Below are positions 22,576 through 25,009 of a stretch of DNA of 64,000 nt, piece by piece (position 1 is the stretch's first letter; the number at the start of each line of letters is the position of its first letter). The stretch is from positions 62,001-126,000 of the forward strand of contig CANFJF010000001.1 in assembly GCA_947447355.1 (NCBI GenBank). Direction: 5' to 3'. Position numbers and translations under genes: made by a program. Under the pieces are notes generated by a model. That model was not told the origin of the DNA. It ran no database searches and saw only the letters and a program-made list of their open reading frames with translations. The DNA comes from Comamonadaceae bacterium. GTDB lineage: Bacteria; Pseudomonadota; Gammaproteobacteria; Burkholderiales; Burkholderiaceae_C.

Positions 22576-22612
22576 ACCCTGGCGCCAGTCATGCTGACTG
22601 ACTCAGGGTTTT
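22576..22612 (+). terminator. Probable intrinsic terminator after the DUF3422 gene
   Basis: ACCCTG (22576-22581) pairs with CAGGGT (22604-22609), and nested inside CAGTCA pairs with TGACTG, giving a long stem followed by TTTT. It starts two bases after the TGA of the DUF3422 gene and overlaps the last codons of the convergent DUF393 gene. The short T-run makes termination likely but not certain. Confidence 0.5.
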
Positions 22613-23019
22613 CTGCTTTCAAGACCCCGTGCCAGTTTTTGCAGTCGGGGCCTGATACGCAAAAATCCCAGATACAGCAGTTCTAAAAACGCAGTGGCTC
22701 CAGGCAAGGACGCTGCTCGGCCCAACCAGCGCCAGCCCGGCAACAGCAGCCACAAGGCGACGAAGGCCTGCGCACCACTCAGCAACTCGCCATTGGCCCG
22801 TCTCACATGAAAACGGGACAATAAACGCGATCTGTCCTCCGCCTTGGCAAGGGGACTGGTTTCGATGCTGACGTCCAGCCATCGCAACGGTTGCAGCGGC
22901 CTCATGCTGCGGTACAAGCTGACCTCGCGACGACACAGCGGACAAGCCCCATCGAACATCACAGTCAGCGCGTCGCAGTTCGGCGCCTCAGGCTTTACTG
23001 GTGTTGACGCCTTGCTCAT
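22603..23019 (-). CDS. DUF393/DCC family thiol-disulfide oxidoreductase-like protein
   Basis: The 138-residue protein carries the family signature MFDGACPLCRREV, the (Y/F)DGxCxxC motif of the DCC family, near residue 20, and SGAQAFVALWLLLPGWRWLGR, typical of the C-terminal half. The CxxC suggests thiol redox chemistry, though few members are characterised. Its ATG overlaps the stop of the upstream hypothetical gene by four bases, so the two are coupled and probably in one operon with the Rrf2 regulator. Confidence 0.82.
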   Translation of the reverse strand: MSKASTPVKPEAPNCDALTVMFDGACPLCRREVSLYRSMRPLQPLRWLDVSIETSPLAKAEDRSRLLSRFHVRRANGELLSGAQAFVALWLLLPGWRWLGRAASLPGATAFLELLYLGFLRIRPRLQKLARGLESRKP

Positions 23020-23318
23020 GTTTCTAGCAAATCTTCATGTTGATTGATGATGCGCTTGGGGCACAAGCGGTCGTCGTACTGGACTTGTCCTTTGTAGGAA
23101 AAGCGAATTTTCAATTTTTCAAAATCATCAACCGCCAGCTTATCGACAAACAAATTGACTAGCTGCAGTCGGTTCTCCCTGATTTTTTTTTTCAGGTCTG
23201 CCAGCACGGCATTGGCTTGTTCTTCGTCTTCTACAAAGTGGTGCCATTGCCAAGACTCACCAGCAGGAATTTTTCTGGATTTGCCTGCATGGTTGCGCAG
23301 GACGTAACTGACCTTCAT
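23016..23318 (-). CDS. Hypothetical protein, 100 residues
   Basis: No family is recognised. The protein is soluble and rich in charged residues, with a WQWHHF motif near residue 24 and a helix-forming stretch EQANAVLADLKKKIRENRLQ. A single cysteine lies near the C-terminus (RLCPKRI). It lies 11 bases after the Rrf2 gene and overlaps the DUF393 gene by four bases, which supports a real, cotranscribed gene. Its function is unknown. Confidence 0.7.
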   Translation of the reverse strand: MKVSYVLRNHAGKSRKIPAGESWQWHHFVEDEEQANAVLADLKKKIRENRLQLVNLFVDKLAVDDFEKLKIRFSYKGQVQYDDRLCPKRIINQHEDLLET

Positions 23319-23329
23319 TTAAGAGTGCC

Positions 23330-23830
23330 TCAGGCTATTGAAGCCATCTTCCAATCGAAAACCGAATTCGCAATGCGGATGGCGACGCGTTGGGGTAGGG
23401 GCTTGAGTTTGAAAATGCTCCGGACTTCGGTTTTTTGGCGGTCTGGCAATTTGGCTTGGCGCGCCAGGTCTGTCAGGCTGCGCAATTCAAAAAAGCTTTG
23501 GATGCGCTGCCGCATCTCGGTTTCCATGATGGCCAGAGGCATCGCTTCAGGGGACGATTTATGGGTGCTCGAATCCGGCATTTCAAAAATTTTCACGATG
23601 TCCCACAAGGTCACTGGGCGATTTCTTTCATCCAGTTGGTAACCGCCACCGGGGCCTTTGTAGGCGCGGACGATGGCATGGTTTTTGAGTTCGCTCAAGG
23701 TGACTTCAATGTAGGAAATCGACAAGCCGAGCAAGGTTGAAATTTCGTGTGCAGGGACTGGCTGCCCCGGGCTGTAGCGGGCAACAACCGTGGCTATCTC
23801 GATGGCTTTGATGGTCTTTTTTGAAATCAT
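23330..23830 (-). CDS. Rrf2 family transcriptional regulator without cysteines
   Basis: The 166-residue protein has the Rrf2 winged helix (VPAHEISTLLGLSISYIEVTLSELKNHAIVRAYKGPGGGYQL in outline) and the following VTLWDIVKIFEM dimer helix. There is no cysteine anywhere in the protein, so it cannot bind an Fe-S cluster in the manner of IscR or NsrR. It faces the MerR-like gene at 23972 across a 141-base spacer with repeated CTACTCA motifs and leads a three-gene minus-strand operon. The signal it senses is unknown. Confidence 0.87.
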   Translation of the reverse strand: MISKKTIKAIEIATVVARYSPGQPVPAHEISTLLGLSISYIEVTLSELKNHAIVRAYKGPGGGYQLDERNRPVTLWDIVKIFEMPDSSTHKSSPEAMPLAIMETEMRQRIQSFFELRSLTDLARQAKLPDRQKTEVRSIFKLKPLPQRVAIRIANSVFDWKMASIA

Positions 23831-23853: not shown

Positions 23854-23971
23854 TGAGTAGACTATTCCACATATTCAAGAATAAAACTACTCATAAATCA
23901 AAAAAATTGAAAATAAACCTTGACTATTATGGGTTTAACTCATAAATTCTACGCAAATACTACTCAAAAAT
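23854..23971. promoter_or_regulatory. Four CTACTCA/ACTCATAAAT motifs in the divergent Rrf2/MerR promoter
   Basis: TGAGTAG (23854-23860, inverted), CTACTCATAAA (23887-23897), ACTCATAAAT (23938-23947) and CTACTCAAAAA (23960-23970) share a core CTACTCA or ACTCATAAAT. One copy overlaps the -10 of the MerR-gene promoter and another ends at its ATG. This arrangement suggests a multi-site operator for one of the two divergent regulators, with autorepression likely. Confidence 0.5.
23920..23948 (+). promoter_or_regulatory. Sigma-70 promoter for the MerR-like gene
   Basis: TTGACT (23920-23925) and TAAATT (23943-23948) are separated by 17 bases, an optimal spacing, and lie 23 bases before the ATG at 23972. 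The -10 overlaps the repeated ACTCATAAAT motif. No Shine-Dalgarno sequence is evident in the very short leader. Confidence 0.6.
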
Positions 23972-25009
23972 ATGATCCAAACAGATAAATTGACGATTGA
24001 CACGCCAATCCCACATTACAGAATTGGCGCTGTCGCAAAATTAGCGGGTGTGCCCGTCACGACTTTGCGGGTGTGGGAAATTCGCTACGGCGCTTTCAAG
24101 CCGACAAAAAGTGACGGTCAGCATCGTCTTTACAGTCAGGCCGACGCGGTCAAAGCGGGCCAGCTCAAGCTGCTGTGCGATGCAGGGCATGGCATCAGTG
24201 CTATTGCCAATCTGGACGCCGTCAGTTTGAGTCGCTTGCTGGTGCAGCAAAGACCTGTTGCCGGAACTCATGTGCAGAGCAAATCGGAGGGCCAAAAAGT
24301 GGCCATGGCAGTGGTCGGAAACGCCATGGCCAGCAGAATCAGATCCCCAAAATTCACACTTAAATTTCTAAGCCATTCGATTCAAATCACGGATGTTTTT
24401 GAAGACCTCGCAGAGGCTGGTTTAGCGGTCTTCAACGATCAGCCGAAGATCCTTCTCATCAAGGTCAATACGTTGAACGACAGCGCGCGTGCACAGATCG
24501 AAAGTTTGGTGGCGCGTCATCCGATCTTCCAAACTATTGTCTTTTACAGCTACGGGCAAGAAGGTGTGGTCGAGGCGCTCAAAGTGCTGGGAATGTTGGT
24601 GCGTCGGGAGCCGATGTCAGACTACGACTTGTCTGATCTCATCAGTTCCGTGCTCTTGGTGGATGCTTCAACATCGATGGGGATATCCGGCCCCACGGCG
24701 CTGATTCCAGCGCGTAAATATTCGGACGCAACACTGAGCCGTGTCGCAGGCATTTCGAGCAGCATTCTGTGCGAATGTCCGCGGCATGTCGCCGAGCTGA
24801 TTGGCCAACTGGCCAGCTTTGAGCAATACAGCCAAGAGTGCCTGAACAACAGCACAGAAGATGCTCACTTACATGCTTACTTGCGGGCGGTCTCGGGCTC
24901 AGCCCGAGCCATGTTTGAGCGCGCGCTTGAAATGGTCGCCGTGCACGAGGGCATTTCGTTGAACAATGACACGCCGGCTCTACCGGTTCTATTTCCCTCA
25001 CAAGGCTAA
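23972..25009 (+). CDS. MerR-type regulator with an unusual C-terminal sensor region
   Basis: Residues about 15-85 form a MerR-type winged helix ([21 protein letters not shown] and the following [10 protein letters not shown]). Residues about 110-230 look like a degenerate Rossmann-like domain, but the DxHxxG signature of cobalamin-binding MerR proteins (CarH/LitR) is absent. The C-terminal helical region ([20 protein letters not shown]) is about 90 residues. At 345 residues it is far longer than classical MerR regulators. It diverges from the Rrf2 gene. The DNA-binding call is firm; the ligand is unknown. Confidence 0.82.

Follow-up and report, generated by a model that had tools for sequence, protein, structure and literature searches.

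Conserved operator between the divergent merR and rrf2 genes

The window analyzed here, a stretch of 64,000 nucleotides from a Comamonadaceae bacterium, carries a CTAYKCA operator between two divergent regulator genes, one of the MerR type (merR) and one of the Rrf2 type (rrf2), and this operator is real and conserved in many freshwater bacteria. We consider it probable that the merR product is an autorepressor which governs a light/photolyase regulon and also controls rrf2.

The preliminary description of this DNA had listed four copies of CTACTCA within 118 bases. Three exact copies are indeed present: an inverted half-site at 23854-23860 (- strand), situated downstream of the inferred rrf2 promoter and 23 bases ahead of the rrf2 start codon (23828-23830, - strand), a half-site at 23887-23893 (+ strand) on the rrf2 side, upstream of the merR promoter, and a half-site at 23960-23966 (+ strand), which is separated from the merR ATG (23972) by 5 bases. 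The fourth copy, assigned to the -10 box TAAATT, is actually AACTCA(T) at 23937-23943 (AACTCATAAATT) and is not conserved; we rejected this AACTCAT (+ strand) as an operator copy, close orthologs reading TTAACTGTAAATT, TTATGTATAAATT and TTTGTCGTAAATT. What had been overlooked is a conserved CTACGCA at 23949-23955 (+ strand), directly 3' of the merR -10 box, which precedes the CTACTCA at 23960 by exactly 11 bp. The two form the main operator, an 11-bp direct repeat (CTACGCAaataCTACTCA, 23949-23966, + strand) that abuts the merR -10 box and covers the expected +1. The merR promoter, TTGACT-17-TAAATT (23920-23948, + strand), is the sole consensus promoter match in the rrf2-merR intergenic region, and its position is kept in close relatives. 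A terminator-like hairpin is found at 23988-24010 (- strand), within the start of merR and upstream of the rrf2 promoter region.

Across the 64 kb, CTACTCA alone was found 5 times, compared to 2.25 expected, which is unremarkable, so that the case for an operator rests on local clustering and on conservation. Four CTAYKCA half-sites lie in the 141-bp intergenic region, a number reached by 0 of 20,000 dinucleotide shuffles, and the CTAYKCA tandem was obtained in 1 of 20,000. A whole-genome scan located the 11-bp tandem in the source genome at this locus only. Genome scans allowing two mismatches returned extra matches at about the control rate and were not used to define a regulon.

To assess conservation, we compared 80 loci that carry a merR homolog; almost all of them belong to Comamonadaceae or other related Burkholderiales, among them Limnohabitans, Polaromonas, Rhodoferax and Zwartia. 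These provided 79 usable upstream regions, of which at most one, in the whole-genome set, duplicates the locus of a close relative; the counts are of loci and not of independent events. One locus comes from a contig titled as an Akkermansia muciniphila metagenome-assembled genome (MAG), but its merR groups with Limnohabitans, and the contig is probably mislabelled or misbinned. Loss of the copies from orthologous regions, named in the preliminary description as one of the observations that would refute its reading, was not what we observed: a CTAYKCA half-site is present upstream of the merR homolog in 79 of 79 loci. At least two half-sites occur in 68/79 upstream regions (mean of 0.15 in shuffled sequences) and the exact 11-bp CTAYKCA tandem in 43/79 (0 in shuffled sequences), with a slightly looser tandem form in 47 of 78 loci. 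The spacing of same-strand half-sites peaks at 11 (47 cases), and the spacing from reverse to forward half-sites is 24 (18 cases) or 33/34 (12 cases). As in the window, the tandem of relatives sits after a -10-like sequence, and a second set of half-sites, often inverted, is found on the rrf2 side. The position of the half-site at 23887 is kept as CTACTCA or CTACGCA in the close clade, with a counterpart in many Polaromonas and Limnohabitans loci, and the inverted half-site at 23854 is kept as TGAGTAG or TGCGTAG in many relatives. Beyond the merR upstream regions, only two further tandems were detected within 737 kb of loci. The notion of an operator between MerR-type and Rrf2-type genes, with autoregulation, is well supported.

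MerR is a LitR-type protein

The merR gene (23972..25009, + strand) encodes a 345-aa LitR-type regulator (Pfam MerR_1, E=2e-11), a light-response kind of protein that had been missed in the preliminary description. It comprises a helix-turn-helix (HTH) domain (residues ~16-81), a Rossmann-like domain (~107-230) and a C-terminal helical domain (~246-330), and no convincing Pfam domain was detected in the protein beyond the MerR HTH. The helical domain carries an invariant segment that includes RKYSD. CECPRH is present in 77/77 aligned MerR rows, C267, C269 and H272 (CxCPxH) being invariant, whereas the B12 motifs ExHxxG and Wx9EH occur in 0/77. These missing motifs rule out the identity of MerR as a B12-type CarH (class I, an AdoB12 photoreceptor), which is marked by ExHx2G...SxV/T...GG and Wx9EH. 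The CECPRH domain is a candidate cofactor or metal site. This helical domain (residues 246-330) belongs to no Pfam family and was also seen in homologs from Burkholderia, Caballeronia and Methylomagnum.

The HTH fold is intact, and its closest solved relatives are CarA and CarH. An AlphaFold model of MerR (mean pLDDT of 73) contains the HTH, the Rossmann-like domain and the C-terminal helices. Ranked by E-value, its best PDB matches are to CarH. Their TM-scores are low, as a different domain arrangement would lead one to expect, and in MerR the helical domain comes after the Rossmann-like domain, whereas in CarH it comes before it.

Full-length homologs in Burkholderia and Caballeronia (~31% identity over 94%) have the CECPRH domain in common with MerR and adjoin folE-type GTP cyclohydrolase and SDR genes, to which the Burkholderia neighborhoods add DUF3429, FAD oxidoreductase and photolyase genes. 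These regions contain a sigma-70 family gene, in contrast to the divergent Rrf2 gene of the window, and no CTAYKCA tandem was found in them. The neighborhoods of these homologs resemble that of the Pseudomonas LitR regulators (PMC9758184). On a Caballeronia plasmid, a photoactive yellow protein gene (L186, 825-1202) lies ~7 kb from a LitR homolog. As summarized in PMC9758184, class III LitR proteins occur mainly in Burkholderia and have a light-dependent spectrum and a C-terminal domain of no known kind. Judging from the homology to Burkholderia LitR-like proteins of folE/photolyase clusters, MerR is most likely a B12-motif-free LitR of the class III kind, the Burkholderia multivorans LitR being known here by description only (Sumi et al. 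2018, J Bacteriol 200:e00285-18, as cited in PMC9758184 and PMC6739363); as far as that description goes, both proteins combine a MerR HTH with a C terminus without a known domain.

Rrf2 and its pairing with merR

Divergently from merR, rrf2 (23330..23830, - strand) encodes a 166-aa Rrf2-family regulator (Pfam Rrf2, E=4e-16). It is followed by a gene for a 100-aa protein, H100 (23016..23318, - strand), which has no match in Pfam or NCBIfam and recurs beside rrf2/merR (15 loci in its neighbor cluster), and by a gene for a DCC-type thiol-disulfide oxidoreductase (22603..23019, - strand; Pfam DCC1-like, E=2e-21), which recurs in 16 loci and likely belongs to the rrf2 operon. The winged-HTH fold of Rrf2 is kept, its model matching RsrR, CymR and IscR, whose GGGY wing it also has. 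Unlike these proteins, it lacks cysteine ligands and bears a conserved C-terminal NSVF tail (SVF in 40/50 aligned rows). The window protein is cysteine free (0 Cys), as had been noted, but this is not a trait of the family, since only 7 of 50 aligned rows are without Cys. No conserved Cys column was found in the Rrf2 alignment, the Fe-S ligand cysteines of the IscR/RsrR/NsrR type being absent.

In most of the 80 loci, rrf2 is the divergent neighbor of merR. Within the genus, a merR homolog of >50% identity was found in 6 of the 37 genomes searched, and it is these six that gave strong matches to rrf2 (E below 1e-45). One more such match, the seventh, comes from a genome outside the merR search set (G088). 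In three genomes (G077, G082 and G083), in which all Rrf2 matches were weak and IscR-like, the motif stays with merR, bearing in mind that a missing Rrf2 may reflect incompleteness in some MAGs. Conversely, rrf2 stands apart from merR at two loci, of which one (L174) retains the tandem at rrf2 alone and the other (L176) shares it with a DPRP photolyase-related gene. No description of an Rrf2-LitR or Rrf2-photolyase pairing was found in the literature searched.

Link to photolyase genes

Photolyase genes are present in 36 of 76 neighborhoods of merR homologs, and in 25/70 a photolyase gene of the same orientation follows downstream within 2.5 kb. Pfam confirmed DPRP, photolyase, SOUL, DUF2237, FolB-type, DUF2805, SDR, HiPIP and DUF3429 among the neighbors. 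At loci L048/L128, another exact tandem, one of the two further tandems mentioned above, precedes a DUF2237-SOUL-folX-photolyase stretch. At L128, an H100 gene is divergent from the DUF2237-SOUL stretch, with the tandem operator in between.

In the source genome, none of the three photolyase-family genes has a site within 200 bp upstream of its called start. A DNA photolyase gene lies on the same contig at 127937, ~1.9 kb past the window end and ~41 kb from merR; no operator was found near its start. Since the tandem is found at this locus only and the own photolyases have no site, the regulon of the source lineage may have shrunk to this locus or may rely on weaker sites.

Proposed mechanism and alternatives

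The mechanism proposed here combines computed elements (motif conservation, geometry, gene pairing, the photolyase link in relatives and protein architecture) with steps that we infer (MerR as the binder, repression, light as the signal and any role of Rrf2). The CTAYKCAA repeats would be the operator of the MerR protein encoded at 23972-25009. Since the repeat directly follows the merR -10 box, MerR bound over the start site would block transcription initiation and thereby repress its own gene. The inverted and upstream half-sites fall within the rrf2 promoter region, so that repression by MerR should extend to rrf2, H100 and the DCC gene, and Rrf2 would be a co-regulated second regulator. 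Light or photo-oxidative stress may relieve the repression, a part of the mechanism suggested by homology and gene neighborhood, and the ancestral regulon would have comprised photolyase and related genes.

That MerR is the binder is favored by the persistence of the motif without a close Rrf2, by a CarH-like layout and by the covariation of a MerR residue with the site; Rrf2, whose winged helix is intact, may bind too. CarH binds 11-bp direct repeats of the form nAnnTnnACAn (PMC8156234), and the TACTCA of the motif fits the T-n-n-x-C-A of that repeat. Base 4 of the site is C in 46 of 48 rows in which recognition-helix residue 30 is S or T, and with P-30 it is T in 17 of 25 rows and C in 8; the combination of P-30 and T is seen in two separate regions of the tree. 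The covariation is confounded by shared descent.

Several other readings were weighed against this one. That the repeats arose by chance in an AT-rich spacer would agree with the lack of CTACTCA enrichment over 64 kb, but this has a negligible probability, refuted as it is by the shuffle tests and by the conservation in 79 loci. It is also highly improbable that Rrf2 binds CTAYKCA instead of MerR: the loci at which rrf2 stands apart from merR do retain the motif, but so do merR loci without a nearby Rrf2, the 11-bp direct repeat has the CarH geometry, whereas palindromes are the usual targets of Rrf2 proteins, and the site shows partial covariation with MerR residue 30. The preliminary description had envisaged a mutual or autoregulatory switch. 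In a mutual switch, each protein would repress the other, MerR by acting at CTAYKCA and Rrf2 by acting either there or at another intergenic site. The intact HTH folds of both proteins, the divergent arrangement and co-inheritance of the pair and the half-sites in both promoter regions are all consistent with such a circuit; we nonetheless regard it as unlikely, since the motif is retained in genomes that yielded no close relative of Rrf2 and since inspection of the aligned intergenic regions brought out no obvious second conserved palindrome of the Rrf2 type. The mutual switch as such was also left unsupported by the CarH-type geometry, the photolyase-related gene that the site precedes in one relative and the residue 30 covariation.

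A further possibility, which we consider rather unlikely, is that MerR binds the operator and responds to redox, metal or singlet oxygen at the invariant CxCPxH and not to light itself. The invariance of C267, C269 and H272 fits this notion, as does the presence of a DCC oxidoreductase, and not a photolyase, in the operon of the window. Its relatives, however, have photolyase, SOUL and folX company, and the class III LitR of B. multivorans is reported, in the account cited in PMC9758184, to change its absorption with light.

Comparison of MerR with known LitR proteins shows both kinship and differences. With CarH of Thermus thermophilus (class I LitR), MerR has in common an 11-bp direct-repeat operator at the promoter, a related HTH and the top fold match; the B12 motifs are missing here and the repeat sequence differs. 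Class II LitR of Pseudomonas mendocina was experimentally shown to be a repressor of light-inducible genes (PMC9758184). Like MerR, PmlR2/PplR (class II LitR, Pseudomonas) is B12 free; it represses photolyase/folE-type genes and has a partner encoded nearby (PMC9758184). That partner is a short LOV photoreceptor acting as an anti-repressor, whereas here it is an Rrf2 regulator, and the operator there is T(G/A)TACA-N12-TGTA(C/T)A. By analogy, a LitR-type protein that uses CxCPxH as a new cofactor site might act together with Rrf2 as a two-protein unit sensing light or singlet oxygen, with Rrf2 in the role of the Pseudomonas LOV anti-repressor, an idea that we consider unlikely.

With CTAYKCA, the poorly understood, B12-independent LitR branch of freshwater bacteria gains a readable operator, and the cofactor of this branch and the switching of B12-free LitR proteins become testable.
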